Shown here piece by piece: positions 28,301 through 53,200 of a stretch of DNA of 64,000 bases. Positions within the stretch are counted from its first letter, which is position 1; every line of letters begins with the position of its first letter. The notes below the pieces were generated by a model, which worked only from the letters and a program-made list of their open reading frames with translations, was not told where the DNA came from and did no database searches. This DNA comes from Halichondria panicea (taxonomy: Eukaryota > Porifera > Demospongiae > Suberitida > Halichondriidae), in contig NC_087392.1 in NCBI RefSeq assembly GCF_963675165.1, forward strand, positions 2,929,001 through 2,993,000, read 5' to 3'. Made by a program: the position numbers and the translations under genes.

Positions 28301-31300
28301 TTACGCACATGTATTAGTATTCATTCAACTATCGTATAAAAATAATAAAATCCAACTATCGTATAAATTTGGCAATTTGGCAAATCCAGGTGGTAGGGAT
28401 TGGCAAATTAAAAATTCGTTGATGTGATCATCTCATATGGATCAATAATGCCATGCAGCATGATCGTCTAATTAAAAATGCTCGCCAAATGTACCCACTA
28501 TTGTTACGGTGTGCTGCTAACCTAGTAGCATGGTTTTCCAACCATGTATAAAGGTACATGTCACTTACAATTATGATGTTTCTGTTGCAGACAAGAAGTA
28601 TTCTAGTGGAGTATCTGGTTTTCATACACTCTCCTCCTGCGCTGTACTCCAGAAGCACCCCCTCATCTCCTGAGAGTCCTTCGGGCGAAGTCCTGGGCTT
28701 GCCCAAGTGGACCGCTTTTCCACTACGGAAAGTGTGAGAGAGAGGGTAGAGAGTATTAAATATAATGCTGTCATGCAGTTATCGTAGTAGTGGGCCCTAA
28801 TATGTACATGTACATGTATGCACATGACTATATGTACATCAACGTAACGCACAAGCTAAACACTATGCATTGAGAGCCTCTGGTTACGTGTACACTCACG
28901 TTTCAGTATTAAGAAGACACGCAGCTGCTCCCTTAGGACACTTGCTGATTTTGCTGTTAGCGGTATCGAGAGTGCTACACACAGAGAAGTAGACCATTGC
29001 AGAATCATTCAGCCTCACTTCTACCATGCCATGAGCTTGAAACACATCTAGATTAGCAAAGTGGGGGAGTATACAGGGCACTCCAATGTTCTCCAAATCC
29101 TTACACACGAGACCAGTGTGCACAGTGAAGGTATACTCACATTCCTTTTCAGGAAATACTTCAAGGAAATCATCCCTTGAAGGCTCACAAGCAAAATTCA
29201 CGACAGTCTTACGCTCTTTAGATACGTGGTGACATTCATCTCCATTCAGATACTCGACACTGATCTCCCCGCCAATGTATTGTAGTGTGGTATTGCTGTT
29301 GACATAGCCCAGAGAGTGTACGTTGTGTGTATGGTTGTCCACGCTGTGGAGGGTGTACTGGCATGCTCCAATATCCAGTTGTGTATCGTCCTTCCATTGT
29401 CGAGGGCAAAGCACTCCTTTCCCTCCAAGACCTACCGTGTAGTTATAGTTAAAGCCATTGGTTTCTGCATACGTATTGAAGAGTAGGGGGGGTAGAGATG
29501 AGAGGTTGAACTGCTGATGAGTAACTGGATCCTCTATGAACCAGTCGGCCACTCTGCTGTCTCGAGGGCAGGCATACTTAGTGTTCCAATCAATGCTCAC
29601 CACACAGTTGGTATTATAGTCCAGTGTCGGCTCACCCTGCAAATGTAAGTGAATTCTCTGACAATTAAGAGACACTGACAATAAGGAACATTTAATGCAT
29701 GCAATAAATGCTCCTGAGAACATGCATGCGATAACGGCTCCAAAAGGATCCAAAATTTTACAAAATACCGTATAGCGGGTAATTTTCGTGGGGTAAAATA
29801 TTCGTTATTTTCGTGGGCAGGCTGACCTCCACGAAATTTTATCGTAGGCGTGGCTTATCTGAACGTAGGAATGCCGTGCAGCCACGAGACTAAACGAAAT
29901 TTTTACTCACGAAAACTACCGTTTCTCGAGTTGAGAACGAATTTTTTACCCCACGAAACTTACCCGCTATACGGTAATGAATTGGCTTGAATAATTTAAT
30001 GGGGGAGCTTAAAGACAACACCATACTCTCACCACGCTGTCCCCACATCGGAAGTGGACATGTACCACACCCCTTCTCCCATTTGAGCAATCTCCATTGG
30101 TGTACGTCAGTACGAGCTCCCCATCCCTCTCTTCCACAATATCACTACTGATGTATCCCAGCACCGACCCTGAGCCTGGAGAATCATCATCACGGTAGCG
30201 ACATGCCCCCATTCCTTCTCTCTGTGGACATTGAGGAACCTTGGAAAAGTCCAGAGACCTGAACAATAGGGAATTAACAATGAATGTCACTGAATTAGTC
30301 ATAATTATTTTGACTACCAACGCTAGTCATAATTGACACATCTACAAAGTACCTACGCAACAAGCTGTTTTCATTATTATGCATACATGAGTACATACCT
30401 ACATCCACCAATGACATAGCTGTAGCCATCCCCCAACCCTCTCACACTCCACACTTGCTGCTGTAGCAATGGCTGGAGATTGTACCTTCCCCCACTGGCC
30501 AAGCACTGGAGTTCTTGCGGTGGACACGCCAGAGCAGTCGGCCAATCAAATGTGTAGCCACAGTCTTCGTTCTCAGAGACAAACCGGGGATAACCTTTGT
30601 AATCAACCAGAGTACGGTCACATTCGAAATTGATCAAAACAGAGCGATTTTTATTGTTGTGATGACATTGATCGCCGCCTATAAAGTTCATAGTCAAGCT
30701 GCCATCGAAATAAGTGAGTGTCTGTGTGTTTGACAGCCCACATTGATGTGGTTTATGTGATGAGTCGATCTGACACACAGCCACAGTCCCATTGTCTTCG
30801 GCTGTCATGCACGGATGGTTTAGAGGGTTGCATATGGATACGTGATAGGTGTGGCCAGAAGGCGTGTCAATGGGGAAGTAAGAAAGGGTAGAGTTTATAT
30901 AACTAAGTGGAGATAGGTCAAAGGTGAATCCTGATGGGTTCGAAACTGAGCATGTTTGAGAGGTGATAGGATGGATGGGGCAGGCATACACTGTCTCCCA
31001 GGTAAAGAGGTAGTCACAAGGGCTGGCATCATCTCCGCCTGACAAGTAGACAGGGCCCGTCTGCAAATAATGTGTTTTTGTGCGTGTGTGAGTGTGAGTC
31101 ATTGATAGATGGAACATCATGTGCTAGGCACTAACTAGTACGTTTTGCAAGATAGGTCTTTTCTCCCTTCAATAGAACTCGGTTTAAAGCCTATAGGTAT
31201 CTATATAGTGCATGTAGTACTCAATAATTATTATCAACATACTCACCTCTACATAGAGAGAGGACTTGTTGCAGGTCAGATGTATAATGGTCGTTACAGT

Positions 31301-34300
31301 AGGGCATAATTCCTCTCCTTGGTTCTTATACTCGTACTTGAGATTGATGAAGTTTTCTCCAGATTGACTTGAGGACGTAAAATTAGCAGTTGATGCTAGA
31401 GCAATATTTGTATACTTCGTCCTCCCCGCTATAATCTGCACCCTACACACAGCTGCGAGAGGGTTGCACCCCGCAACAGAGTTCAAGGGTTGACAGATGT
31501 TGATGTAGTATAGAGAGTCGTCCCGTCCCCGAGTCTCCCAGTTCCCAATGCCACTAGCTCGTGAGAGAGCAGAGAAGTCAAACGTGTTGGTGGGAGTAAA
31601 GTGAAGACAAGAATGCGCTTGATATGCTGGTGGGCATGCTTTCTTTGTTCTAATTTCAATTACGTAGTTGCAGTAATCCTCGTCAATGTCGTTGACTACT
31701 GGGTCATGTGCTGTGCTGTCACACACAAAAACTAATGTGGTGTTTCTGTTAGGATTGCCATTGTGGTGACATCGTGTCCCTCCAGTATATTTTAATTTGA
31801 GTGTTCCATCCTCATATACTAAAGTTGAACTCGAATTTCCAAGAGAATAGTGATTAGCTCCAACTGATTGGCACACGGCGGTGTTTGTTTTAGTTCTAGG
31901 AGAACAAACAGTCTTATCTAGTGGTAGTGGTTTACATATCGATACGTTGTATTGGTAGTTATCTCGGTTGAATGATATAACTGGGAGAGAGGTGAGGTTG
32001 AAGACAAAGCCAGTGGAGTGATGGATGACAGTGCAGTCGTTGCCAAGCTCAACACCAGTGGGACAGGCAGCATACGTCATCCAATGGAACTCATATAACA
32101 TGTCATTTGTCACGCCGATAAAGATAGGGGGTGTGGTGAAATCTCCCACTTTACACACATAGTGTACCACAACAGAAAAATTAGTATTAGTCTCATCTCC
32201 CACCACGGTTACAACATTGCTGTCAGCACTGTGGACCTGGGTAGAGCTTGAACTGAAATCGAAACGGCCAATTTTCATAAGAGTGCCATCTTTTTTGACC
32301 TGACACACGCTGCTCCCAGCACACTCTTCCGGGGCAAGTTTGGCATTGCAGTAATCTGCTGGTGATGAATGTGGATCAGGAGCCACAGCCAATGTTCCAC
32401 AAGGGTTAACCATGAAGCACTCGGTGTGTGTTTGGGTGTCTGTTTGGGTGTCTGTTTGGGTGTCTAGTGCGATCCAATTTTCGTTCTCTGTACCAACGAG
32501 GGGGGCCAAATTGTAAATGCTCCCCAGAATCTCAAATTGACAAGAAGAGACCCCTGAAGTCTGTGCCCCACAAGCGAGGGGAGTAACCCATTCAAACTCG
32601 TAGAAGCAGTCTTCTTCACCTGAAAAAGTTATAACACTTGAATTTGACTCGACATTCTCTGGGCAAATGAAGTGAATGATGGTTGTGCGAGCAAAGTTAG
32701 TGTGACAAGGATCTCCAAGTCCATACATAAGTGTGAGCTCTCCGTCCACATAACGAAGTCTTCCGGCCCCCACTCCAAGCACATGACACATACCACCACC
32801 ATCTATCTGTGTTACACGAATCGGTTGATCCCTAGAAGCACATCCAGTGCTTAGAGAATTCTTGGAGCATATCTTGAAGTCGTAACGATATTGTCCCCCA
32901 CTTGAGTCTAGCTGTGTATTGCTTGTGACACTCTCTTGAGAACTAAGGCCCGTGAGGTCAAAGTTTAATCCTAGAGAGGTGGTGAGCGTGCAGTCAGTGG
33001 ACTGTATGGCTGCATTACCACAGGCGTAAGATGAATACCAGTGTACGACGAGGAGACAAAGATTATCGTCCAGGAAGGTGATACGAGGACCCAGGTCCTA
33101 TATCGTGTTGGATAACAGTGTTGAAAGTAAGGTATTACTTAGTCGCTCAGTGTAAACTATGTACTTACAGTACATACATATGGATCGACACAATAATTCA
33201 GTAAGCAAGATCTCTGAGCCTCATATACACTTATAAAATCTTACCTCATTCCCAGTCGGACAGAGGAAGTGGATCTTAACTGAGTGGTTTCCAATGTTGT
33301 TGTCACTGTCGAAACAGGCTCCACTTTTCACACTGGTATAGTACACCACTGTTAAGAGACTGCCTTCAACGTGTAGGTGAGAACCAGAATTCATGTCTCC
33401 CAACTTTAGGGGAGCGGCTACACCCGAGTTAAAGCCCGAGTCAGTTTGATTTAGGCAAGCCATTGCTCCGGAACAACCACCAACATTTTCCAATGGCCGA
33501 CACACTGACAATAAGAAACTACTTGCTGGTCGCTCAGGATAGGAAACCGCATATCCTTCAGGGTGAATTAGGTTTGTTAGGTCAATAAACTTTGCCTTCA
33601 GGCCATTGTCCAAGTATGGGTGAACGTGATAACACTTTTCCTCCTGGGCATTAGCAGCCAAAGAGGAGCTGTTCTTACAGGCAGCAGATGTCACCCAGAG
33701 AATTTCAATGGCATGGGAGTTGGGATCACCTTCTAGTACCTCTGGTACACCCTGGGAGTGTAAAGTGTGGGTGCACATGAAAACCTGATAGTTTATCTAC
33801 GTGCACGTACAGTACAAAACATAAAATGCTGAAAATGAAACACAGGCTTAAACAAACCACAACTTACCAAGGTACGACCACAAACCAGAGTCACAGACAC
33901 ATTGCCACTCCCATACACAAGTCCAGGAGCGTAGTCGAACACAAATTTAACTTGTTTGATTCCAGCGTCATAGTCATAGCGACAGTTCTGACCTATATCA
34001 GTGAAGACGTTGAGATGCTCAGAATAGCATAATCTGGAATTGGCACAGGTAGTGGGAGCACTCAGGGGCCTGCACAGACTGACGTTGAAGAAGTTGGGGA
34101 TGTCTGGGTTTTCTTCACCTTCTGCTTGACTGTAGTAAACAGTCTCCCAGGTTCTGAGGGGAGTAATACATAATTATAGTATAATGGTGCAGTCATGACG
34201 ATTTCGGTTACATTCGTTAAACGGCTCATTACTGATAAGAAAAACTTTGCTAGTCAATGTAAAGATACGATCGCTGGTCAATTGTTTAGTTGCGACTTCA

Positions 34301-34873: not shown

Positions 34874-37322
34874 TCAGGCTAAAGGTTCGTCGTCATCGTC
34901 ATCATCAGTGAGCTGACTGAAAGAATACACCTCAGCTCTCTGCTTGCGTTTCTTAAAGTATATACCCACACAGAGGATGGCTATCACCATGACAACCACA
35001 CTGCCAAGCAAAAGTAGGGACACAGACACAGCAATGGCAGTCACTGGTAGAGAGGGCTGATCAGTCACTGCAGTGCCTGAAATGTGGATGTAATATTTGA
35101 AGTAGTTTATGGCTTTGTTACTGTCTGAACTTCAACTCTATTATAAAAGCTAAACTTTACATGCTTTTATGCTGTTACTTTAGAGAATTAGTATTGTGCA
35201 TGTGATTGACATACGATATTCATAATAATATGTAAGGTTGTCAGGGTTGCAGCTGCTCCTATCAAGACTGATCCGAGTCATGGGAATTGGCGTGAAAGAA
35301 TATAATTTTTGAACAGTGAAAGTCATCTGTGGGTAACTGAAATGAATATGCAGTTCACAGCCTTATCACATATTTAGTACCTGAAAATCCATAGAGTAAT
35401 TGTGATTAACGAATACAACGTCAACAGTATAGTTAATACTGCCCTCTGAGAAACTTCTGGTCTCGTTTCGATCAAAGAAATCTTTCTCTGCAACGTTATT
35501 GTCTGACCCTGTGAAAGCTACGGCTTCTTGGCACGGAAGAAACAAAAAGGTGATAGGTGAATCAGCAGCTTGAGCAAATATACAGTTAATTGACGAGCAG
35601 TTCTGGTCAGTGGTGCATGTTACTGACAACTGTTGTTGCAATGCTGGTGAAAACTTAAAGTTGGAAGCCACTTTGTCCATAGACTGACACATGCACGAGT
35701 GGGGGTCGAGGGGGAATTCAATGTTAGGAATAATCACAACAGCTATATCACCCTCGAAAATGCCTGTTACCTGCAGTATGAGAAAAGGCAGTGATGTAAG
35801 CACTGTTATAGGGTTTGGTATCGTTATGAATTATGTACGTGCACTGTTTCGACATTGTCTAGCTAGTAACCAGTGAAGATTGCTAACTCACACTTATGTT
35901 GAGATGTGTAGTATTCCTATTAGTATAAATACTAAAATCTCCTTCGCTATGGTACGTTGGCTCGGGTCCACCGACAAAGTAAGTAGCTCTGAGCAGAAAA
36001 TTCGACGAATCACTTGTACTGATCGATAGATCCACTCTTAGTGGGTCCGAACACTTGTCAATCACCATGACAGCATTAGCGAAGTGGTTGGAGCACTTAA
36101 GTTCAGAACAGTTGCTCAATGGCTGACAGACGGATGGAAGAGCAATGTGGGGGCAGGACGAGAGATCAGGTGGTGTTGTCACTCTAGGGGTGGTTGGGTG
36201 TGTACCAGGTAGTGTTGTCCCCCCTCCAGGGGTGGTTGGGTGTGTGTCAGGTAGTGTTGTCACTCCAGGCCCTCCTGTTCCTCCCTCTGTGGTACAAATG
36301 CTGACTAGTGTGCTGGAGCCAGGGTAGTAGACCAAGTCATTACCACAGTTGCTACGATCAAGTAACACTTGAGTTGGCTGAAACAGAGTAACTTGGATGC
36401 CAAACGTTAACGAGGTCACTGAAGCCTGCATGTAAAGGTTTGTGTATAAACATGCACTTGTGTAGGAGTGCACATTCCTGTTAGGAATTCAAGGACATGT
36501 GATTAATATGTTTGTACAAACACAACTAAACAAATGCACATATAATTTATTGCAATCCCAAACTTACGCTGAAATACAGTGAGTAGTTGCTGTTGTTAAG
36601 GTCCATATGCACAGTAAACGGGTACTGTCCCTCCACAAAATTCCTATCCTCAGTCTGATTGAATAAAGCATTCTCACTACCCCCTGTTGTCGGGTTAGCA
36701 CCAGACATTAATATTGTCTCTGCACAGGGATCAAAAGTGAAAATAATTGGCTGATCAGAATTGTCTTGGAATGTGCATCGTACAGAAGAGCATGCCTCGT
36801 CTCGAGTGCAGTTGTAGCTCAAAGTTTGAATTGGCAGCTGGAACTGAAAATTGTTGGCAACAGTTTCCATCGACTGACACATGCACAAATGTGGTGTGAG
36901 AGGCAGGGTAACGGATGGAATTATTATAACAGCAATGTCTACTTGATAGACACCCGTCGCCTGTAGAGTGACACAGTTGCATAACAAGGCAGTAGCTAGA
37001 AACATGAAGATAATGCCTACCATAAATGTAAGGTGAGTGGTGTTTCTGCTGTACGTTGCTGTTATCTGCAGACCCCCAACATTGTTACATGTTGATATAA
37101 CATCAGCACCTCCGACAAGATACTCCTGAGTCAATGGACTCTCTGTACTCACTACCAGAGAGAGGGACAGAGGGTCAGAACATTGCGTGATGGTGAGTTG
37201 ACTTGAGGTAGCAGGGAAGGTACCACTGCAGGTGAGACGAGAATCAGAGCAGTTGTAATTGCACCCGGATGGGATATGAGAAGAGGTGGGGCACTGACTG
37301 AGTGCACAGCAAAACAGAGCAA
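34874..37322 (-). CDS. Cys-rich module membrane protein A (5' exon unresolved)
   Basis: The model is complement(join(34874..35076, 35215..35326, 35381..35770, 35892..36425, 36568..36960, 37021..>37322)), about 644 aa. I do not recognise the family. It has four extracellular modules in two alternating pairs. Each module has a Cys trio (CTTDQNCSSINC, CTRDEACSSVRC, CQPLSNCSELKC, CNYNCSDSRLTC), then a P-C or C-S-D-P-L stretch, then N-x-T sites and a beta-like end. Modules are joined by strands such as DIAVVIIPNIEFPLDPHSC. A Thr/Pro-rich linker (TTLPDTHPTTPGGG) lies between the pairs. One membrane segment (AVSVSLLLLGSVVVMVIAIL) and the tail KKRKQRAEVYSFSQLTDDDD end the protein. Exon 1 must end in phase 1; 37440-37520 has a signal-like VVHALSCILLA but no ATG, so the start is open. 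Confidence 0.75.
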
Positions 37323-38078
37323 CTATAGAAGAGAGGGGATAATTAATAATCTATGTTTGTTTTACTATCAGAGTTGTGATTATGATGTAGGTATATTGTA
37401 TAAGAAGAGTTCATTGTATCTACACCCAATAATACTGTAAAGTACCCGTTAACCAGCAAGCAATATGCAAGATAATGCGTGAACTACGGCTCTGAAGCTG
37501 ATGTGAGGGTCACGTTAATCTACAATTTGGTAGATGGCACAGCAGGGTCGCTATAGCCGCTTATATGCCCCATACTACACACACTAGTTACATTCCACTT
37601 TATACCAAAATTTTGTGCTCATATATACAGGACTAGACTGTATCTGACCGCGAAAGTGTTATTTATAGCAGATACATCTTTATAGGGAACAAATATTTCG
37701 GATCAATGCTCAGTACAGTGCACCCTGAAGGAGTGACTCAGGCTAGATTTCAAGCTCAAGCTAGCTAGCTTCAATGTCAAACCGACTCGTAGATCACAGC
37801 TGTTTTATATGTTTCCTAGCTTTAGACTCTAGAAAAAATATCTAGACATGTAAAAACTTACAACCTACCAAAAAAGATAAAGATTTTCATCTCCTCCTAG
37901 ATCCTCTGTTCCACAAAGGCAGTGCTGAGTTCGAGTAGAAGCTGATCGATCAATGTGTATTTGTTTATTGTAAAGATTGTCACAGTAAAAAATTAAAGTC
38001 TCCTGGCCGATTTTTATTTGATAGAACGGAAGGAGTTCAGAAAGTACACCATAATGTGTAGATCGATCATGTAAACAC

Positions 38079-40766
38079 ATGAACATGCAGGAATCACAAG
38101 ACTTTAAGCCAGTAGGCAGAAGAGGAGTATGTTCTTTTGTTCATAATAGCTCATTTTACTTGTACGGTGGTGCCTTATCAATACCTGGTCTTTCAGCATT
38201 CAGGCAAACACCTCATGTGGACATAGAGATGTTGGACATGCACAGTGGACTGTGGTCTTCAGTAGAAACAGAAGTGCTTCATTCTCTACCCCAATTTACA
38301 TCTGGGGCATGCTGTGCTGTGCTCAATGACAACCTCTACATATTTGGTGGTTGGTTGGCTGGATTACGTAATGCTCATATTCACGAGCTGGATTTAGAAA
38401 CGTTCTGTTGGAAAAAGCTCCCGATCAATAACCCTGAGAATGGTCCTATCTGTAAGGACAAGGCAGCGATGTTCGGCTATGGAGACGACATGATGGGGGT
38501 GTTTGGCGGTTATGGTTACCCCGAGAATGATGCGCATGCCCGATTAGAAGGAAGGGCAGCACAGTACCACCGGGACACTACTAATCCCTTTTTCTCTATC
38601 TATTGGACGAATGAGCTTCACCTGTTTCATGTTGGGAAATGTACGTTAAGCAGATTAGGGGTCCATCTTCGGTTAACAGTGAAAAGGGGAATTTTCCGAA
38701 AATCTTTATGGCATAAGCACTTTCCTTTTGTAGTGAGGTATAGACTAGTCTCTGCACATGCACATAGACTCTACAAATGGACCTTTGTCCTATTTGTGAA
38801 TTCGTTCTAATTTTTTGTAGCCTACTATAATAACTCGCCTAAACATTGTGTTTTCTGAATAAGGCGATACTGACGTTTTGCAACCCTATACATTATGTCA
38901 GGAGTGCATGAATGTACATCTTGGGCATGCTGTGCTGTGCTATTCATGCGCTCCTGATAATGTACATAACAAACGAATCATTATGGGTGAAATGTCTATA
39001 ATTATGTCGTATATTTAGAGGTCACCTTAATTAGAATAATGTGTAAGTACGATAGCCTAGCTGTGGCCATGCAATTAACGTTTCTACCTCGAAATTTAAG
39101 ATATATTATAGCTCTCTTTGTCTCACCACACAGCAGAATGGATTGTTCCTGTTGTCACGGGGATCCCACCACCTCCCTGTGCAGCCTTCTCTATCACTAG
39201 AGTTGACCCCCACAGATTGGTTATCTTTGGGGGAAAACAAGTGAATAGTAGAGTCAATGAAATCCATATACTGAATTTGGACACCTGGGTATGTGGTTGT
39301 ATAAAGCCTGCCTCTAGAGAAAGCAGTAATTAGGAGCGGATGTGGGCATGGGGACAAGGCTAATGGTTGTATAATTATGATTAAGATTAATGATTTCTTA
39401 GTGCATGTACCTTAACTATGCATTTTATTTAACACTCGTCTTGTATGAATAATGTCATTGTTCATTGTTTTTCACATGTGCCGGTTACTATCAGCATACT
39501 TTCCAAATACAGCATTGGAGTGGTGTTAACCTTCCCTCGAGGCCCGAGGAACCATGGCCTGTTGGGAGGTCCTTCCATACAGCCTGTAGTCTGTTTGACC
39601 CGTCTGCAATCACACCACCTTACCCACCATGTGGTACAGTATTTGAGTGGCTCCCTTGTCCCACTCCTGACCTTGCACCATGTGAGCCTGCTGTCACCGT
39701 TGACCCGAAGGTAATTGTCTTGTGGGGTATGAGCAATGATGCTGACCCTATCGATGATGCATGGGAGCTCAATGTCAACACCCTGACTTGGAAGCAGGTC
39801 CACTTGCCAGAGGGTGCTGGACCAAAACGAGCCTGGCACACTGCGTCCGCCTACCATCCATCACCTTGTGAAACCCTGGTAGTGGTATTTGGTGGAACAT
39901 CTGAGAACATGTATGTAGTTCCAGACCAACAACTGACGAGCATTTCTAAGCCATCACTGCTTCACTTTGGTTAGTTCTCAAAACTTTTATTGCTATAATT
40001 ATTGACCTTACGAAATCACTATTAATTTTGCATTGTAACAACTGAAGAGCATTTCTAAGCTGTCAGTGCTTCTCTGCGGTTAGTTCTCCTGATCCGTCTC
40101 ATTTTCAAGCCATAATTATGTATGTACCTTACGCAAGCACATTAATTACTAGTATGGCTATAGAGTGCAAATGATTAATAGCATAAGTAACAATGGGAAG
40201 GCTACTAATTGCAGGAGGCGTAGGCGAATGCTATTAACCTTTCCATGAGTGCTATTAATCCCTTATTCAATAAATAACCATACTATTGATTTCTAATTGT
40301 GTATGATGAAGTTCTCTGTAACATTTTTGGCCGTGGGGTTATTTGAAAACGATCTGGTCATTGACGTATATACAGTGTGCAATTACTGGACCGGATGTGA
40401 TATGGGATTAATTGTTGTACACTCCAGTCACTAATAGCACATCATACGTGATTATTGCATTACCGAAACATTGCTCATGCATCCTCAGCCCTTTTTTTTT
40501 ATCTTTACCGTAGCTATAATTGTGTACATGTTATAAACTGATCGAAGCCACGCTCTATCCCTTCAAATTATTAACACTGCATGTAGTAATAATTTTATTC
40601 ACCCCCTCCAGGTGTTCATCGCCTCTTTGAGCTCTGCCTTCAGTACATTATCGAAGACAAAATCCTCATGTCCCATCATGACCATCTCCCCATACCTGCA
40701 CACCTGCAGCAGCAGATACGAGAGCAAGTGACCAGCAACCAACAGTTGTCCATTACCAGACTGTAA
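38079..40766 (+). CDS. KLHDC2: Kelch protein KLHDC2-like, CUL2 substrate receptor
   Basis: The model is join(38079..38640, 39134..39288, 39513..39969, 40612..40766), 442 aa (human KLHDC2 406). Kelch repeats are recognised by G-G doublets and aromatic positions: FYLYGGALS, LYIFGGWLAG, MGVFGGYGYPEND, LVIFGGKQVNSRVNEIHIL, NLDTWHWSG, PVGRSFHTA, WGMSNDADPIDDAWELNV, KRAWHTASAY, VVVFGGTSEN. KDKAAMFGY and LNLDTW match KLHDC1/2. KLHDC2 binds C-terminal Gly-Gly degrons and joins CUL2 through its C-terminus; the end LPIPAHLQQQIREQV aligns with the human NCLPKHLLHSVNQRF. The Arg of FGGRYRDAR is kept in NSR, while the Arg after GG is Lys. It sits between two members of the Cys-rich family. Confidence 0.85.
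38641..39133 (+). other. KLHDC2 intron 1 with hairpin containing copied exon sequence
   Basis: Arms at 38891-38912 and 38942-38963 (cattatgtcaggagtgcatg and its inverse) enclose 27 bp at 38915-38941 that repeat KLHDC2 exon 1 positions 38297-38323 with one mismatch. Confidence 0.65.
39931..40150 (+). repeat. Tandem duplication of KLHDC2 exon 3 end and donor
   Basis: Positions 39931-40035 and about 40040-40150 share gagcatttctaagc, tgctt, ggttagttct and ttac-g-aa-cact-ttaatt in order. The second copy is a pseudo-exon end inside intron 3. Confidence 0.65.
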
Positions 40767-40885
40767 CATTCATACGTACAGCATACGTGCAATATTATGT
40801 TTGTTTTTTTATAAATCTATATTATACAAAACAATGAAATGTGAATGAATGTTATTATACGCAATGCGTATATTTGGCTACTAAG

Positions 40886-43800
40886 TTATAAATCATTATC
40901 ATCATCATCATCATCATTGTCTGTGTTGAATGTCATCCGCTGAAAATGGTACTCTCTACGAACACGTTTGTGACGCCGGATTGCCATCACTATGGCTACC
41001 AACATCACGATACCTCCAATAGACACCAGGAGAATTGTCACAGGCACGGCCACAGCTATCGTTATTGACTGACTGGATCCTGATATGAAAATACCAGATA
41101 TGAAATATAATGGTAGTAGTACAATACACTGGTCTGCTGGAATAGAAGCTAGTACATGCATGACCTGTATACAAATTTGCTAGAGCACTTGAGAATTTAC
41201 TAGGCTTATGGACCCTGTATTGCACAAAACTGATCAGCTATAGTTCTGACAGCTATTAATTGCTTAGACGCTACCTAGATCAACCTTTGGATATGTAGAA
41301 ATCCTGGGGGAGCATGCCCCCAGGTAGGTCCTGGCAAATTATGCTCTTTTCCCCGCCTATTATGCTTTTGAGCACTGCCCCAAATTCAGCCTTATTATGC
41401 TTGTCGAAAGAACCTATTAATGCTCCACATTGACGTCATAAATATAATATTTTTTCAGCTGTAGTAACAAGTATTGTGCATCAGCTATAACTGAAGATTC
41501 AACATAATGATTCTAAAAGAAAAAAAAACACAGGTTCAGCAGCAGCAGCTAGAGGACCGTTGTATTTTAACTGACCAAATTCAAATTTTTAACCCTATTA
41601 TACCAGCAATAATTTATGACCTAATTTATTATGCCCCAAATTTAATTATGCCAGGGCCTACCCCCAGGTCCCTAGCTTATGGCAAGCTTCGCCCAACAGT
41701 AAGTTCTTATGCCAATCTGTTCAATCTTCTTGTGCCACTGGAAATGGACTCTAATTCCAACAAAACACTGTACAGCAAGTACTAGATTAGTGTTAAATAA
41801 TAGGGGTTATTGAACACGTACATGTACCAGTGTGTCAACATTATAATGGGGGATGGGGAATCTTTTCCAACAAGGGGATTTACTGCTTTTCTCAAGGGAT
41901 GAATTGTTTGAGGTTACGACCGCACACCAGGTACATATAAATGATTTGTCAAACAAAACACGTACCTGAGGGAAGCTTGGATGGTGAGACCATAGTGGAT
42001 GTGTTCCTAGTGGTTGTGACGATAACAGCCGTGTAAAACGTTCCCATAGGTGGACGGGAAGAAGATTGAGATGAGCTAGCCAGCTGTTGCAGTGATTCAC
42101 ATGTTTCGCTCGCTCTTGGTGTGGGCGATGGCATACGTAGCGGAGTAAACGTACGGGTAGTAGTGGGTTGTGTGGGTGTGACAGCGCGAGGGCATTGCGC
42201 TCTGTTAAGAGGAATTGTTGTTTCAGGAATGATTGTAACGGGGGCAGTTCCTGCAACTACAGAAACAGTAACCTGCAGGTACAAGATGAGCAGATCAGTA
42301 CAGATACACATGCAGTGACTGGCTTACATTTATAGAAATCGAATCTTCATTTGGGGATTGCATAAGGTTGATGTTTAAAGTGCCAAGTCCAAAGTTTTCT
42401 TTACGAGACTTAGTAAGTGTTTCATTGTAAATAACTTCCCCAAGTGCATTCCTTTGAACCACATTCACAGCTGGTGGGTTATGACAAGGCTCCACAGTAA
42501 CATCAAACGAGCCAGTAACACCACCAGGAAGTTCACAGTGAAGTCCAGAGCATTGGACATTGGTGACACACAATTGAGATGAGCTAGCCAGCTGTTGCAG
42601 TGAATCACATGTTTCGCTCACTCTTGGTGTGGGCGATGGCATACGTAGCGGAGTAAACGTACGGGTAGTAGTGGGTGTGACAGCGTGAGGGCATTGCGCT
42701 CTGTTAAGAGGAATTGTTGTTTCAGGAATGATTGTAACGGGGGCAGTTCCTGCAACTACAGAAACAGTAACCTGCAGGTACAAGATGAGCAGATCAGTAC
42801 AGATACACATGTAGTGACTGGCTTACATTTATAGAAATCGAATCTTCATTTGGGGATTGCATAAGGTTGATGTTTAAAGTGCCAAGTCCAAAGTTTTCTT
42901 TACGAGACTTAGTAAGTGTTTCATTGTAAATGACTTCCCCAAGTGCATTCCTTTGAACCACATTCACAGCTGGTGGGTTATGACAAGGCTCCACAGTAAC
43001 ATCAAACGAGCCAGTAACACCACCAGGAAGTTCACAGTGAAGTCCAGAGCATTGGACATTGGTGACACACAATTGAGATGAGCTAGCCAGCTGTTGCAGT
43101 GAATCACATGTTTCGCTCACTCTTGGTGTGGGCGATGGCATACGTAGCGGAGTAAACGTACGGGTAGTAGTGGGTGTGACAGCGTGAGGGCATTGCGCTC
43201 TGTTAAGAGGAATTGTTGTTTCAGGAATGATTGTAACGGGGGCAGTTCCTGCAACTACAGAAACAGTAACCTGCAGGTACAAGATGAGCAGATCAGTACA
43301 GATACACATGCAGTGACTGGCTTACGTTTATAGAAATCGAATCTTCATTTGGGGATTGCATAAGGTTGATGTTTAAAGTGCCAAGTCCAAAGTTTTCTTT
43401 ACGAGACTTAGTAAGTGTTTCATTGTAAATGACTTCCCCAAGTGCATTCCTTTGAACCACATTCACAGCTGGTGGGTTATGACAAGGCTCCACAGTAACG
43501 TCAAACGAGCCAGTAACACCACCAGGAAGTTCACAGTGAAGTCCAGAGCATTGGACATTGGTGATACACAATTGAGATGAGCTAGCCAGCTGTTGCAGTG
43601 AATCACATGTTTCGCTCACTCTTGGTGTGGGCGATGGCATACGTAGCGGAGTAAACGTATGGGTAGTAGTGGGTTGTGTGGGTGTGACAGCGTGAGGGCA
43701 CTGTGCTCTGTTAAGAGGAATTGTTGTTTCAGGAATGATTGTAACGGGGGCAATTCCTGCAACTACAGAAGCAGTAACCTGCAGATACAAGATGAGCAGA

Positions 43801-44268
43801 TCAGTACAGATACACATGCAGTGACTGGCTTACACTTATAGAAATCGAGTCTTCATTTGGGGATTGCATAATGTTGATGTTTAAAGTGCCAAGTCCAAAG
43901 CTTTCTTGACGAGACTTAGTAAGTGTTTCATTCACTATAACTATCCCAGATGCATCCTTGCCAACAACATGTACAGCTGGTGGGTTATGACATGGTTCAA
44001 TACGAAAATCAACTGAGCCAATTCCAATCACCACACAGTTTAACCCAGTACACTGGTCACTAGTGGTACAGGTTCCAGAAGTTGCAGCCAACTGCTCCAG
44101 CGCTTGACAAGTGGGGTTGAACACAGGTGTGGGGTACAGTTCTGAAAGCATAAAATTGACAAAATAATTGACAATTGCTACAAGTAGTAAACAGCAAACA
44201 GTCGCTATACACACATCAAATCCAAGACAAGAGGCTTGGCCCTGTTTATGATTTGATATACATCTCAA
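40886..44268 (-). CDS. Cys-rich module membrane protein B, with amplified exons
   Basis: The model is complement(join(40886..41079, 41966..42272, 42328..42771, 42827..43270, 43326..43778, 43834..44268)), 758 aa. I do not recognise the family, but it shares the module of proteins A and C. Each full module has a strand segment (VTIIPETTIPLNRAQC), a Thr/Pro linker (TRTFTPLRMPSPTPR), CDSLQQLASSSQLC, CSGLHC, then VEPCHNPPAVNVV, YNETLTKSR and NEDSISIN. Three modules are nearly identical, a diverged one is N-terminal, and a truncated one precedes the membrane segment (ITIAVAVPVTILLVSIGGIV). The tail RRHKRVRREYHFQRM ends in poly-Asp. All four internal introns are 55 bp and phase 0. The start at 44268 gives an 18-residue lead before a hydrophobic core (VCIATVCCLLLVAIV); a separate signal exon is possible. 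Confidence 0.78.
42273..43833 (-). repeat. Three tandem 499-508 bp exon-intron units
   Basis: Units 42328-42826, 42827-43325 (499 bp each) and 43326-43833 (508 bp) each hold one 444- or 453-nt exon plus a 55-bp intron. The first two differ at only a few positions. The third has 9 extra bases, coding three more residues in the Thr/Pro linker. The left neighbour 41966-42327 shares the start of the unit up to the attgagatgagct junction and then diverges. Confidence 0.92.
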
Positions 44269-44360
44269 GCTTCATGCATACCGCAACACATGGTCTGGGG
44301 AGAAAACCATTAATTTGTGGCAGCTATAGGCCTTTTATAGGGGCATCAAAAATAATAGCA

Positions 44361-44594
44361 CAGTACAACCTCGATTACCTGGCCTTCTATTATCCGGAAC
44401 CTCGATTATTCGGCTTGGCAATTCTGAAAATGGGTGTGTCCCCATGGATACCATGGATACAGGCATGCACTGCTGTTTATCCATAAAGTGGGTGGATCAA
44501 GGTGTAGTTTATATACATTCAATTATCCGGCAAATTTTCAGTTACCCAGGCTACCCCTGGAACCAAGTGTCCAGATAATCGAGGTTCTAATGTA
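44361..44594. mobile_element. pogo/Tigger-like MITE, copy 2
   Basis: The left end cagtacaacctcgatta is inverse to the right end taatcgaggttctaatgta. Confidence 0.65.
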
Positions 44595-45560
44595 CCACTT
44601 AGGGTAACCATCCGTGGCGCCATACACAGTCTGAGAGAACCATCTGTTCTACCAGGGATACAAAAGAAAGAGGGATTGGAAACGAAAATGTTTGCATGAA
44701 ACACTCCGCATTATAGGGCGTGGCTAAAACTACAAAGGATTATATTTATAATCAGCATGCTCATTACCTGTCTTGATTGTTCTACAATGTGTTGTACATA
44801 GAAACAGTGAAATTGATCATTTTTAATGTTGATTTTTCTAAAAAGTAAAGAGAATTTAGCTCTAAAAAGTCGAATAAGCCATGCAGCCACTATCACTAAA
44901 CAAATAAATGCTATACAAGAAGGAATAGCCTTTACTATGAAGTTGTGGGAGGTCAAGGCCTTTGGTGTGTCTAAAAGTATACTAAAGCAGTTTAAAGGAC
45001 TATATATAATGCAAATTTTATGAACAGTACAGCTTATCTATAGCATGAAGCCATTCTATGTAGCACTTAGATACATAATAACCAAGTCAAGCAATGTCCT
45101 TCGCTGTTTTGATTTCACAGCAGGGACAGAGAAAAGTAGACATAGAGTAATTCAAGCTAAACTCAACAAAAATTGGAAACAGAGTAAAGACAACGGACTT
45201 AGAGCTTGTCAGTGGTATAAGCTTACTTCTCTCGAGTACCTCCCAGCCCCTGAGTGATCGCCAGTGGATAGGAGAGCTCGAAACCAGGGATACCAAACCA
45301 CAGCGCAGTCCTCCATGTAATTATTTGCAAGCGCGATTAATTACACAGAGTGCTTCACCGGATGTCAGTCCTTTTACACAGGGTGTGGGCGGTCATTTCC
45401 AATCTCTCTTTCTTTTGTATCCCTGGTTCTACAAGCATATATTTGATATCCTGTCTCATAAATATTCAGGAAAGCCATAATATTTAACTGACGAGAATGA
45501 AGGAAAAAGCATTCCAGAGCTGCCACATCTGTCAATTTTGGCATTAGAACAACATGAATA

Positions 45561-45743
45561 TCGTATTGCGGGTAATTTTCGTGGGGTAAAAAATTCGTTT
45601 ATCTGGAAAACGGTGGTTTTCGTGAGTAACAATTTCGTTCAGTCTCGTTGCCTGCACTGCATTCATACGTTCCGGTAAGCCACGCCTACGCTAAAATTTC
45701 GTGGAGGTCAGTTTTCCCCACAAAAATTACCCGCTATACAGTA
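45561..45743. mobile_element. MITE, 'tagcgggtaattttcg' family
   Basis: The left end tcgtattgcgggtaatttt is inverse to the right end aaaaattacccgctataca; the element is about 183 bp. Confidence 0.7.
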
Positions 45744-46896
45744 GCAGAGAGATTTTGCTAGAGGGGATTGTAACAATGGCATGCGAATGCCTGAACATTA
45801 TACAATGCTACCAAATCCCATGCACTAAAATGAGGAAGACAAAATTTGGCCCTTTGGGTGGACCAACAGTGGTTGTATAATAAAGAGGCGGCCTGCTAAC
45901 ACAACACACATGCTATGGAAACTTTGGGCTGTAACATTCTGGTTATAGAGTACCCCCAAAACAATCAATAGAAAATGTAAGCAAATGTAAGGAAGTGGCA
46001 TTCAGTTGTCCCCAACACAACTACAGTACCAGAGATTAAAGAGAGGGATTTGAAACTAGATCGCTTGAATACATACAGGACTTCATAGAGGGGGGGGGGG
46101 GGGCGCGGCACTCGCCCCCCCCTGGCAATTGTAAATTTTTGTATTGCTATTCATAACAACAACAATGATGAGTTATTTATGAAGCTACTTTAATTAAAAT
46201 ACGTCCACAATTTCTTCTAAGTCACTATCTAAGTCACAAGCACATGTATACAGAGAGAGTGAGAAAAGCTTGTGTTGCTCAGGCTATAGCTATGGCGCTT
46301 TTATCTGATGACTCATAGTATAGTACATGAGTCTAGTACCATTCAGTCCAGGCAATTGAAACTAAGGTAGTTCAATTTAATTTCTGCATTTTTTTTAAAT
46401 TTTATTCCACGATACTAAATAACCACACAGACACCACAGTTCCTAGGAATGTACCAGATGCGATCTAAACACATCCTGGGAGGGCATGCCCCCAGACCCC
46501 CCTAAATAGATAATCGCCTCGTCTCCCCCAATTTTTTTTCCCCCCTCAGTTAATTTTTTTTGTATGAAGGCCTGAGTAATAAACTTGGAAAATCGTTGTT
46601 GCCAAAATGGGAATGGTACGTTATCTTTACTACTGCAAGTTCTATGTGAAATATTTTGTGGGACTGCTGCTACATATAAAACTAGAGCACTAAAGTGCAA
46701 ACCCTCGGCTGGTGACGTGACATGATTATAAAGAAACCAGAAGAGTGATATAATGCAGTGCATGTAATAATAAATGTTATGTATGACTTATTAAACGGTC
46801 TAGCACAGCAACTCAGGAGCTAAACCAGACTGGAGGCATGCTGAAGCTTTGAGAACAGGGTTTTAGTGGTACATAGATAGATATATGCACTGTGGA

Positions 46897-47182
46897 CTAA
46901 AGTCTATTTGTGTTGAGTTTGACCTTCATAAAGTTGTCATAACTTTGTTATACTCATAACTTTGTTATACTTACTGAAATTCAAAGTTTCATATACCATT
47001 GGATTCCTTGTTAAAAAGCGCTTCTATCTATATGCTGTAGAGCTGGTAAAAGTTAGCATTTTCTACGTAGAAGTCCCAGGCATACTTGTCCAGCATGTGG
47101 ACCATGTGTAAAGCCATAATTGTAAAGCCATAATTGACCACATAGCTTCCGGGGTCGAACTCAACGCAAATAGACTTTAGGA
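46897..47182. mobile_element. MITE, 'aaagtctatttg' family, copy 2
   Basis: The left end actaaagtctatttgtgttg is inverse to the right end caacgcaaatagactttagg. The interior matches the DCAF6 intron copy in inverted orientation. Confidence 0.7.
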
Positions 47183-47617
47183 TCACAGCAAAGAAGCCTA
47201 GAGTCTCATGCAGAGAAGTATGGCTCCTGGAGTAGGATCCCAGAGTCAGCTAACAGAGACAAACCAGACACAATTCTAGCTTTCTATTGTATCGACCCTT
47301 TTCCACAAACACACAAAGCATTGGATTATGTTTCGAATAATAGCCGCATCCAACTAGGCTAATTATAATTATTGGCTTATGTTTCAAATAATAGCCGCGT
47401 TTAGATTTAGCTAGTACGCAAAAAGCTTCTTAGGTTTAGCTCGCCTTTTCTGCGAAACAAAGACTTCTTTGCAAAATCTGCCAAATTTTAAGCCTTAGTT
47501 TTAGTTTTAATGCTACAAGTTTCCCTACGTACAAATTGTGATGTCTAAATCACCAGGTAAGCCATACTGAGCAGTGACAGACACACACACAGACACACAG
47601 ACACACAGACTACTGTA

Positions 47618-47715
47618 ACCATAGATAGAGTAAAGAGGGATTGGAAACGGAAGTACCCTCGAAGTACCATCCGTGTATCTCCGCGGTTTTAATCGAGGCT
47701 TACTTTTTAACACGA
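47618..47715. repeat. Interspersed repeat unit
   Basis: This is the second copy of the 6627-6727 repeat, sharing gggattggaaacggaagt and cggttttaatcgag. Confidence 0.5.
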
Positions 47716-47869
47716 GGGCTAAACATGAATAATTCATGAGAATTGTTTTGCTCTCTGTAAGAAGTCCACAGGAATTCTGATATTCATGCTCGTAATTTAA
47801 TATATCCCGAGGAAGACAATAGAGGACAAAATTAATACAGTCCTCAATTGTTAAAGGTGGAATGCATAC

Positions 47870-48047
47870 CTGACTGCGTTCCAGATCCACTCCAGGAGTC
47901 ATTATCACCACTGTGCCATGATTCATGGTCTCTTGCGAACAGAGTAAGGCCATTGTGGTGGGTAGTGATGACAGCCAAATACGCCACAAGCAGGCAGCTC
48001 ATGAACACTGTCAGCACGACCAAAACTCCTTGCTTTCTTCTATTCAT
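47870..48047 (-). CDS. Possible first exon of a signal-anchored protein
   Basis: From ATG 48047 the frame gives MNRRKQGVLVVLTVFMSCLL and VAYLAVITT, a basic lead followed by a hydrophobic stretch, then an Asp/Ser-rich segment, and ends in a donor-like G|gtatgc at 47864-47869. No convincing next exon is seen, though a short frame ending near 47700 fits the phase. It is head to head with protein C. It could be a real small gene, a decayed one or chance. Confidence 0.3.
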
Positions 48048-48294
48048 ACCTAGTCTACCTCTATAGCATTTATCAAACAACAGTGGCTGAATGCTGAACA
48101 GAGTCTACTGTGTACCATGCACCGTGGCCCTCGATAAAGGAAGTGTACGTAGATCTACGTGTAGATCAAAACCACTCAATTCTATTTATAGATCTAGACA
48201 GAGAAATCCAGTGACCCCCACAAGACTCCCGGGATCCAAAAAATTGTGTTTCACAGAAAGTTCAAGGGTCCATCAAACTTATCCTAGATGCAAA

Positions 48295-49441
48295 ATGTTT
48301 GCTTCTGCCATCATCTTGCTTACTGTGGCTATCAATGGTGAGTAAGCATTATATTGATGGATCCATGGTTCCACTTCTGACTCTGTAGAAGTGGCTTTGC
48401 AACCAGTACCCTGGCCACCACTTGTGACCAGCTGCAATGTCATGCCACGAATAGCTGCAGACATGACTGTTGCAGCTGTCGGACAGCTCTCTTGTGTCAG
48501 CTCAGGGTGGCCAGAATGTGACACCATCTACTGTAACGTGGTTTCCAACAGTGAGCAGCTGGAAATACAACTGCTTCCCTGTTGGGAGTATCCAGCACTC
48601 TGGTTGAAGGGCAGGGACATCAATGGTAAGGAGATTCTTCAGCACATTTTTTACAAGGACGTGGAGACATTTAAGATGATGATCGGTGATGCACAAGTTA
48701 CTCTTTATGTTGCTATTGTGCAAAGGAGCAAACTGACTGTGGGTGTTGAGGTATTACATATATACCAGTCACATGATGTCTGTTTTTTTATCATTTTCAA
48801 ATTTCTTTTAGGTAACCGCTCAAGTTGGAAATAGCAATGTAACACTCATTCCATACAGAGACATCCCTCTCAACACTTCATTCTGTCAAGGTACTACATC
48901 ATGAATCTAGACAAATTAATGCATACAATAATATTTTGAACAGATCCTACTCCTCTCACCTGTGAAGTTCTTGAGTTTATTGAGCAATACATTATCGTGG
49001 AGCAATCAGCCTGGACACATGACCCAGCCCTTACTCCTCAATGTTTAATACCAGACTCAGCACACTGCACCAGTGTCAAGTGCCAATGGCCATCCAACCC
49101 GCTTCATAGTCAGCAGGCAGAGATGGACCTGCTACCTTGCTTAAAGCCGGCTGGAATGAGGATTAGTGTGAGCAATTCACAGGATGGTGTAGTTTTCAAC
49201 CACACATTTCAACAATCGGAGATAGTTAAATTTAACTCTGATACAAAATTAAATGTGACGTTAACTCACCCCCAAGAAGGAGTGATAGGACTAGAGGTGA
49301 GTCTACCGAACGAAGGTTGAGCAGTTTGTGTATTAATTTCTTTTATAGGTAATCTCAATAACAACCACTCGTAACTTTACTCAGCTCTCCTTTGTGAGAG
49401 TGCCTCTACCAAAGTGCTCCACATTTGTCGTTTCTGAGTAA
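48295..49441 (+). CDS. Secreted Cys-rich module protein C
   Basis: The model is join(48295..48337, 48389..48750, 48812..48890, 48944..49296, 49349..49441), 309 aa. A signal peptide (MFASAIILLTVAING) is split by a phase-1 intron. Two copies of the module also seen in proteins A and B follow: C...CDTIYC with QLLPCWEYPALWL, and C...CTSVKC with DLLPCLKPAGMRI. Each module is one exon ending in phase 0, and each is followed by a strand exon or segment (VTAQVGNSNVTLIPYRDIPL; VISITTTRNFTQLSFVRVPL) ending in Cys. There is no membrane segment, so it looks secreted. Function is unknown. Confidence 0.8.
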
Positions 49442-50216: not shown

Positions 50217-53200
50217 TTACTGGTATTTGATCAGATAAGCTGGATAAGCCTTGTCGTTATCATATGTCATGAACACTTGAGATCCGTTTGTGTCACCAGT
50301 CACAGAGTCGTAATCCATATTAGTAAAGTGTACTTTTCCACCCGCAGATCCACGTGGTTTTTGAGGCGGCTTACGAAGGCTCCCATTTGAAACACATCTG
50401 TAGCTATCTCCAGTGAGAACTTTGACGAAAAAAATTTCTTTACAACCATCGTATGTAGTGTAGGAATAGTTGTTAGAATAGCTTGCATTGACTGCGAAGT
50501 AATTGGCTGTTCCCCACATTCCCTGGTTACTGTACCTCATGTCGAACCCATTCTCTCCTTCATAAATGAGTTTAGGATCGTTGCTGCGGGTACCATGAAA
50601 AAGCTCTTTTTCATTGACATTTCCATTGTTCTTCAGATGCAACCTCTTCTTGTGGGCACAATAGGCTTCCCACAACCAGGTATTTTGGATCCTTGAAATA
50701 GATACAATACGACTAGTAGACAGCGTAGCTTGAAATTTTTGCTCCACCCTGGTCCATTCGGGAGTTTTCGGTGACACTGGGAACACCTCTGTGGTTAGAT
50801 TTTGGTCTTGCCATTCAGGTGGAGTGGAGATCTCTGCGTCAGCACGTTCCAGTTGATGGTCGATGATGAGTTGCTGTACTGTCTTCACCACAACTTGCAC
50901 ATCACTATTGATACCCTCCAGGGTTACCAAACTCTGTTTTTTAGACCCAACCTGGCTCTCAGTGACACTGAAACCAACTTGGTGCTTGAGAGCAACATTC
51001 TCAAGCTTGCTGGAAAATTGATGAGATAAGGCAAACCTAATGTTAATGTCCTCTGTCTGCATATAGCTGTCTAGTTTCTTTTTAAGTTTGGTTTTGGCAG
51101 CCTCCAGAGAGTCCCTAGGTCCACGCAGGGTTACACACACTTCCTGCTGGCCAGATGAAGGGTCACATATTTTGGGTGCAAGAGTAGCAGGAGGGTTAGG
51201 CTGATCAGGCCTAGTTGATCTTGGGTACGTACACACCACACATAACTCCTCTTGAAGTTTATATGTAAACTGCAAAAAGTTGGAGGTTGAAAACACCGAT
51301 CGAAACATGGGTTTGACTGTTAGCTGCTCTTGTCCGACACTCGATTCGATTGGTTGAATCACTTGCGTTATCAGTGGTTGTTCAGCAACAAGAATGGCTG
51401 CTGGAGTGCCACTCAGCTTTAGGCCACTCTGAGGCTTCTTGAGGGGGTAAACTTTGATTCTACAATTCCGAGCAATGCTGTTAGCATGCGAAAGGTACGT
51501 AGTGTACTTAAAGTGTGAGTTCAGTACTAGACCAACAACCTCATTATTGCTGGTAAGGATCTTGCTGGTCATGGTGCACTCTCCAAGGAACTTCTGTATT
51601 TCCTCCTCAGCTGTGTCTAGTTCTTCACTGCAGTCCTCAGGAGCAGTTAACTCAGCCTCAAAGATGGTAGATTGACATTTTATATAGAAGTACACGGCTA
51701 ATGGCCACAGAAATTCTTTTTTATCTTTTCTGAGGGTGTTGGCTGCAATAGGCGTGAGCGGAATAGTTTTTGTGATAGTGGCTGTTTGCGAGATCTCTTC
51801 TCCAATTTGAAAGACTTCAGATTCCTCACCCACAACATAGATAGTGGTTGTAGTTACTTCATCCTTCGGAATTGATTGTTGTCTGGCTTCCTTACTAATA
51901 ATGTCTATGACAATGTTACAAGTTCTTTCCTTGTCTTTCTTGATTTGATCCCACCGTCTTTTCCACATATGGTAGTATTTGCTCTCATAGTTAACTTCGA
52001 ATTTGCCAGTGGTGATACTGTTTCTGATTCCTACCAATTTTTCGTACACTGGCTCCACACTCTTAATTGGACCCCTGATGAGAATTGAGAATGGTTCAGA
52101 CTCACTCTTTGATCTTACGATACGCAGTTCATTACAATCTTCCTTAAGTTCTTCGAAGTCTTGCTTGTGTCTTATAAAGAGCTGTTGGTGGGTGGTGAGG
52201 GGAATGAATTTGGTTATCTCATGACAGCTGTCAACTTTGTCTAGTATCTCAGCTGCACAATCACAAACTTCATTCTTTGTGAGACCATGGATCATCAAAA
52301 AATCATCACGGTTGATGATTCTAACACGATAACTCATCTCAAGCTCAGATTTGATCTCATTAAGCCTGATCGACCTTGCTGCTCCCTTGCGTAGAGTTAG
52401 TTTCCTATGAGAACTTTCAACTTGCTCTAAACACGAGCACACAGTCTGAAACACCTCGCGATGCTTGCTACAGACGATCACGCTAATCTCTGTTTCATCT
52501 TCTTCAGATCGTGACCGTTGTTTACGAGCAGGGGCTTTTTGCTCCTGTATTATCCATATCACTTCATCTGACACAGGCTTCAAAACCACATCTTTAATTT
52601 GCGATACAAATCTTCTGTTTTGATAGACAAAGCGGCGAGTGGAGACTTGAGAGAGAAAATCGCCCCTGATCAGTGCCTGTCCTGTTTGAATAGCTTGGGG
52701 ATTTCCTTTAAGGAATACTGTGCTTTTTCTTACAACAAACTCTGCAGAAAGAGAGGATAATTGTTCTCGTGCTTTGTGGTCTGTCTTGTGTAGGTAGATA
52801 AGGTATGCAGTTTCCTCAGGAGAGCATTGAACAGGGATTTTCTGAGAGGTAGCTGTTTCCATTCGTTCCCTTAGGGCAGTACATACACTTGCACATTCCT
52901 GTTGCAAGTAACTCTTAACTAAAACATTGGATTCCTTTTGTTCTATGTCCACGAATGGTGCGTTCAATGTTGAGATGAGTTCATCGCATACCTCGCTTGA
53001 TATATTGGTAATGTTCTCAGTGAACAATCCTTGTTTAAGGGCAAAACTAGCGATCTCAGTACTAGATTTGGACAGGGAGTATAGGACAACACTAGGTCTT
53101 GTATCATGAGAGAAAATACACACTTGTAGATTTTCAATACAGAATCTCTCTTTAGCTGATCTAAGAAGCGGTTGTGCAAGACTGATATTCAATTCCAAAG

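Follow-up and report, generated by a model that had tools for sequence, protein, structure and literature searches.

The 64-kb window analyzed here (Halichondria panicea contig NC_087392.1, positions 2,929,001 to 2,993,000, forward strand) carries three clustered genes, A, B and C, made up by the same Cys-rich unit, and raises the question of what this unit is and what the proteins built from it may do. Positions are those of the window unless another contig is named. As far as sequence can tell, A, B and C draw their repeat from a coherent family of modules for which no named domain gives a convincing match, and which is well defined in a single demosponge-like genome. The reading favoured here, to which a probability of about 0.55 is given, is that of an unnamed six-Cys extracellular module that recurs in tandem in a small family of demosponge receptors, A, B and two genes found elsewhere in the genome (D and E) being putative type I single-pass receptors, and C their soluble relative.

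A six-cysteine module split by a phase-0 intron

The module common to genes A, B and C is about 115–140 residues long and features six cysteines. Cys1 lies at a predicted helix and is followed by the Cys2-Cys3-Cys4 trio, a strand, Cys5 (mostly found in a P-C context, at the strand end), further strands, a phase-0 intron, and a last strand with Cys6 (type V-x-I-I-P-x-x-x-I-P-L-x-x-x-x-C), for which the next exon codes. The initial annotation had the unit open with a strand ending in P-L-x-C. This boundary is permuted, the 'PL..C' strand closing the preceding module, because module 1 opens at the first Cys without it in each of A, B and C, and C terminates with it. The Cys trio of the earlier description is present, but the full signature is made of six Cys per module; the N-x-T site ascribed to the unit is common but not universal, being missing at that place in module C1. 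A final strand cut by a phase-0 intron, also proposed, was found at every modelled junction of this kind in A (four), B (four) and C (two). The same split before the last strand was read from the sequence in D, E, F1 and G (genes and modules outside the window, see below), the donor of E1 being GC. Introns modelled at both ends in A, B and C are all GT-AG.

Of 18 modules considered together with the last strand (A1-4, B1-4, C1-2, D1-3, E1-3, F1 and G), 16 have six Cys; the count omits F2-F4, whose last strand lies outside the models, a stub in B, and broken copies on contig C10. A1 has one Cys in addition to the six, and its third Cys is shifted. D3 and E3 feature four Cys each, both having neither Cys5 nor Cys6. 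Since D and E are paralogues, the loss is probably a single event, and the absence of both residues suggests that Cys5 and Cys6 may pair in a disulphide.

Sixteen modules (A1-4, B1-2, C1-2, D1-3, E1-3, F1-2) were compared with shuffled sequence, B3 and B4 being excluded as near-copies of B2. Each was scored by a profile trained without its own group, D and E being withheld together, and set against 500 shuffles in which the Cys positions were kept fixed (494–500 reported per module). When training included all other groups, 14/16 modules scored above every one of their shuffles, a result in line with one repeated unit common to A, B and C; 13/16 did so with profiles trained on window genes only. 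Alignment of the modules is in these cases better than that of shuffled Cys-rich sequence. Among the window modules, six of eight exceeded all shuffles when trained on the other two window genes, all eight with the wider set.

The genes of the window and their neighbours

Gene A (minus strand, 37890-34874) has seven exons, GT-AG throughout, and encodes 651 amino acids. Its extent had been given as 34874-37322; the start is located further upstream, in a 22-base signal-peptide exon at 37890-37869, and the exon set was also incomplete, an extra exon being found at 35326-35215. Four modules were confirmed where about four had been counted, as was the membrane anchor, the protein ending in a hydrophobic segment and a basic/acidic tail. 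Signal peptides and membrane segments of all genes were read by eye rather than by a topology predictor. The signal peptide of A is split by a phase-1 intron, and 14 sequons are found in the protein. As read from the gene model, A is laid out like a type I single-pass receptor: a signal peptide is followed by extracellular modules, a single membrane segment and a short tail. Matches to the module hidden Markov model (HMM) are marked in the lists.

37869..37890, minus: A exon 1, with the start codon and the opening part of the signal peptide (MKIFIFF); GT donor, phase 1, in-frame join to 37322
37021..37322, minus: A exon 2, end of the signal peptide and A1 minus its last strand; AG/GT, phase 0 out; HMM match
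36568..36960, minus: A exon 3, last strand of A1 and body of A2; AG/GT, phase 0; HMM match
35892..36425, minus: A exon 4, with the last strand of A2, a linker rich in Thr/Pro, and the body of A3; AG/GT, phase 0; HMM match
35381..35770, minus: A exon 5, last strand of A3, body of A4; AG/GT, phase 0; HMM match
35215..35326, minus: A exon 6, with the last strand of A4, overlooked at first; AG/GT; aligns with the last strand of A2
34874..35076, minus: A exon 7, membrane segment and a cytoplasmic tail with poly-Asp at its end, then stop; gene model

Gene B (minus strand, 44141-40886) encodes 716 amino acids, counted from the first modelled exon. This exon opens at an acceptor at 44141, and a start at 44268, as previously annotated, is unsupported. 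Four full modules and a truncated fifth agree with the five, one of them truncated, that had been reported; the protein closes with the expected anchor, a hydrophobic segment followed by a basic/acidic tail. The 25 Cys of B correspond to four sets of six plus one in the stub; sequons are eight. B also contains a 499-bp tandem repeat, introns included, which is a recent expansion.

43834..44141, minus: B first modelled exon, body of B1; AG/GT, phase 0 out
43326..43778, minus: B exon, last strand of B1, Thr/Pro linker, body of B2; gene model; HMM match
42827..43270, minus: B exon, last strand of B2, linker, body of B3; gene model; HMM match
42328..42771, minus: B exon, last strand of B3, linker, body of B4; gene model; HMM match
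41966..42272, minus: B exon, with the last strand of B4, a linker, the fifth (truncated) module and a stalk rich in Ser/Thr; gene model
40886..41079, minus: B last exon, membrane segment and a tail with poly-Asp at its end, then stop; gene model
42065..43992, minus: 499-bp tandem repeat, 3.8 copies, 96% matches; the unit is about one module exon plus one intron

Gene C (plus strand, 48295-49441) has five exons and encodes 309 amino acids, with 12 Cys (two sets of six) and five sequons. It is made of two modules, and features a signal peptide and no membrane segment; both the module count and the lack of an anchor match the secreted protein that had been proposed.

48295..48337, plus: C exon 1, signal peptide (MFASAIILLTVAIN); GT donor, phase 1
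48389..48750, plus: C exon 2, body of C1; AG/GT, phase 0 out; HMM match
48812..48890, plus: C exon 3, last strand of C1; AG/GT, phase 1 out
48944..49296, plus: C exon 4, body of C2; AG/GT, phase 0 out; HMM match
49349..49441, plus: C exon 5, last strand of C2, stop, without a membrane segment; AG acceptor

A cation-independent mannose-6-phosphate-receptor-like gene is located directly downstream of A (27497-33097, minus strand; CIMR repeats, E 5.9e-55), and is matched by solved receptor structures with E values down to 6.2e-128. Further open frames of this gene extend to 34173, the interval 33224-34173 being assigned by eye. A Kelch-repeat gene of the KLHDC2/KLHL20 type resides between A and B on the opposite strand, at 38055-38807 (plus), and probably extends to 40766, later exons being assigned by eye. 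The window also includes a 1059-aa open frame that ends with a PARP catalytic domain (50220-53396, minus), an RRM protein adjoining it (53456-54835, minus), and a 350-aa open frame with a POU domain and a homeodomain (2771-3820, plus).

Relatives elsewhere in the genome

The genome from which the window derives (131.5 Mb, 39 contigs) was searched for relatives, the numbers of which are lower bounds. The family found includes at least five multi-module genes, four copies on contig C16 and one module on contig C11. The profile of the eight window modules finds exons in the DNA of contig C10 at 1.63 Mb and contig C16 at 1.9 Mb (best E 1.6e-10, open frames scanned). In searches with single modules, contig C10 was hit by A3 (E 0.024), A4 (E 0.007) and C2 (E 6.9e-5), the 1.9 Mb region of contig C16 by B2 (E 1.5e-5) and by G, the module of contig C11 (E 2.7e-6). 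Modules from contig C10 hit A4 (type 2, E 9.6e-8) and C2 (type 1, E 6.9e-4); F1 hit contig C11 (E 7.1e-5) and B1 (E 0.003). Two further matches to the type-2 query, at 16.4 Mb on contig C1 (E 0.74), were set aside, the one that was read having no module at E <= 10. The flanks L008 and L010 gave no module match at the same threshold. Outside this genome, no relative was found in one scan of a prokaryote and one of a viral collection with one module as query, scans which say little, as they cover prokaryotes and viruses only.

Genes D and E are arranged in tandem on contig C10, and each consists of three modules followed by a membrane segment and an acidic tail; a signal-peptide exon was recognized by eye in D. 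The neighbouring interval, 1.637-1.657 Mb, is occupied by an array of truncated first-module exons in units of several kb; several of these exons contain stops, and the arrangement is one of birth and death of module exons. On contig C16 (1.903-1.915 Mb) F1 is accompanied by three copies, with identities to it of 76, 80 and 86%. On contig C11 one module, G, was found within the 20 kb read. Two very similar long open frames, PI-PLC X-like by eye, lie near G (contig C11, 3.139-3.145 Mb; L009 1743-3092 and 5745-6863).

Ratios of nonsynonymous to synonymous change (dN/dS) were estimated by NG86, the F and D3/E3 slices running one or two codons past the donor. The three D/E module pairs gave dN/dS values of 0.17, 0.30 and 0.21, which are rough because dS (1.4, 1.3 and 2.1) is near saturation; from these values the coding sequence of D and E looks constrained. 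The ratio is 0.51 for B1/B2, and is without value for A1/A3 and A2/A4, in which synonymous sites are saturated. It ranges from 0.62 to 1.47 in five of the six F pairs, and on this ground the F copies, which are recent, may be near neutral, decaying or diversifying.

A serine silicatein is a demosponge marker. A silicatein fragment used as query matched exon pieces on contig C2 at 659 kb (81 and 80% identity) and on contig C6 at 200 kb (75 and 56%). The active-site position is a serine in both silicatein-like exons (GASYAF and GSSYAF, respectively); a cathepsin-like exon at 800 kb on contig C2 reads GSCWAF. The assignment to a sponge, made at the outset, is on this ground well supported, if short of proof. 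The best-scoring matches to the query, at 49–52% identity, were left unclassified.

Known families, alternative readings and comparison systems

No named domain had been recognized initially, and nothing convincing was found in Pfam, NCBIfam and PDB, the latter searched by both sequence and fold; HMMER and Foldseek gave no significant match. The eight window modules match zero Pfam families at E <= 10. Seven longer or single-module queries gave ten family matches, all below the printed cut-offs, seven of them on the membrane segment of D. The best Pfam matches of 14 modules at E <= 1, listed by E value without scores, were Cu-oxidase (0.0024) and Sgf11_N (0.0042), each in 1/14. NCBIfam, which is directed to prokaryotes, returned one family (chitinase ChiD, E 0.028) for one module out of eight. 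In PDB sequences, the best matches of the eight-module profile were TLP-IPT (E 0.18) and interleukin-1 beta (E 1.1–1.6), both missing from the list of the 14-module profile; the best match of the latter, an EVH1 domain (E 1), spans profile positions 2-39, includes the first Cys residues only, and was treated as chance. The best match of G alone had an E of 1.3. No description of the module was met in the literature at the level of titles and opening lines of abstracts.

AlphaFold2 models were built from window-only alignments of a B exon (nine sequences; mean per-residue confidence, pLDDT, 75.2; predicted TM-score, pTM, 0.67) and of the module body (eight sequences; 77.9 and 0.69). Both feature one helix at Cys1 and then eight strands. 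Foldseek found no PDB match at E <= 0.001 with either model (best 0.42 and 0.57), and a best E of 0.10 in BFVD, but a fold relative could be missed since the models do not include the module's own last strand. A second look with VIA brought up SFTSV Gc (Z 5.8, root-mean-square deviation 3.2, 89 residues aligned) and mosquito SGS1 (Z 5.6, 3.1, 60 aligned), both in the range that the tool calls common, and, tied with SGS1, a Mediator chain (Z 5.6, 3.3, 65 aligned); none was retained. The absence of a listed family in this second look excludes nothing.

The module could be a very divergent member of a known superfamily, with a beta-sandwich, a cystatin-like or a PH/EVH1-like fold, too distant to be picked up by HMMER, or by Foldseek with models as shallow as these. 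This is rather unlikely: low-score fold matches recur (EVH1 and RanBD rows, both PH-like; frataxin, Z 4.0–4.7; monellin, Z 4.4–4.5), and EVH1 also tops the PDB list of the 14-module profile, yet the EVH1 and RanBD rows have TM-scores of 0.19–0.35, the Foldseek and VIA values are those reported above, and Pfam offers nothing over its printed cut-offs. Alternatively, the membrane genes may encode endosomal or lysosomal glycoproteins or sorting receptors instead of recognition receptors of the cell surface, routed by the acidic tail like a mannose-6-phosphate receptor, with modules binding lumenal cargo. Acidic runs near the tail ends of A, B, D and E and the sequons of A and B are in favour, as is the mannose-6-phosphate-receptor-like gene adjoining A, although neighbourhood is weak evidence. 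No canonical dileucine or YxxPhi motif was seen by eye in the four tails, however, the poly-Asp of A and B derives from a run of GAY-type triplets and may be incidental, and C combines a signal peptide with the lack of a membrane segment; we consider this reading unlikely, and a sorting role of the acidic tail a guess. It is less likely still that the modules are structural spacers of glycocalyx or matrix devoid of a specific ligand, tandem duplication only setting their length. The near-identical 499-bp units and the Thr/Pro linkers of B would fit, but three unlike modules follow one another in the same order in D and in E, and dN/dS is <= 0.30 for each pair, which suggests position-specific roles.

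Most likely, the module is a disulphide-stabilised ectodomain of single-pass receptors. Hydrophobic segments are present in A, B, D and E, signal peptides in A, C and D. The six Cys of each module would form three disulphides, and the phase-0 split would let exon duplication add modules. In A, B, D and E, three to four full modules, sometimes on Thr/Pro-rich linkers, would hold a binding surface off the membrane, putatively at the cell surface, and the short basic-then-acidic tail may serve internalisation or signalling; C would act as a soluble two-module relative, either partner or decoy. A role in recognition or adhesion, with the binding of a ligand, is plausible given an architecture that combines a signal peptide, tandem modules of disulphide type, a membrane anchor and sequons. 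The tail alignments A-B and D-E were reached by 0/1000 shuffles each.

Several observations weigh against the receptor-family reading. With training on all other groups, D3 was reached by 14/499 shuffles and E3 by 2/499; with training on window genes only, A1 was reached by 34/500, A3 by 29/499 and D3 by 8/499. As D3 is reached by shuffles, its membership is mainly positional, along with its resemblance to E3; in the genome search D3 matched itself and E3 only, and C1 itself only. The search upstream of B for a signal-peptide exon gave one poor candidate, and none convincing. The first-module exon of E ends (contig C10, 1634648) with GC where its paralogue D has a GT donor, and E may thus use a GC donor or be damaged. 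Cross-pair similarity of the tails is weak, the scores being reached by 10 (A-D), 5 (B-D), 109 (A-E) and 870 (B-E) of 1000 shuffles, and those of A-D and B-D rest on acidic runs. To these points add the dS of 1.3–2.1 in D/E, the dN/dS of the F pairs, and models built on eight to nine sequences without the last strand.

By what means sponges distinguish self from non-self, and symbionts from food, is an open question, and the known candidate receptors mostly feature domains already named in other animals. A defined and alignable unnamed receptor module provides a model to search with, markers at the exon level, and constructs with which binding can be tested. It is, even if no function is assigned, a clean case of animals making new extracellular domains and multiplying them by exon duplication. 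A bolder version of the proposal, which we regard as improbable, is that of a sponge-restricted domain with a fold outside PDB, spread by phase-0 exon duplication into a set of receptors and soluble partner (A, B, D, E and C) for self/non-self or symbiont recognition, the near-identical tandem units of B varying ectodomain length between individuals.

EVH1/PH-like domains resemble the module in being strand-rich, and in a chance-level sequence match at its first Cys residues; they differ in that the module gives no significant fold score. EVH1/PH-like domains are intracellular, and have the helix at the opposite end of the domain. CIMR/MRH repeats also are repeated Cys-containing extracellular modules of a membrane receptor, and reside in the same neighbourhood, but PF00878 (E 5.9e-55) is found on the neighbour gene and matches neither the eight modules (E <= 10) nor the 14.

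An expansion of sponge SRCR receptors is reported in PMC10855680. Such receptors differ from the family described here, as no SRCR, Ig, EGF or fn3 match was found in the eight window modules (E <= 10) or among the families listed for 14 (E <= 1), and few genes, a lower bound, were found for the six-Cys module. The likeness to these and other single-pass receptors with tandem ectodomains lies in the repeated Cys-rich modules, the membrane anchor, the short tail and the tandem duplication.

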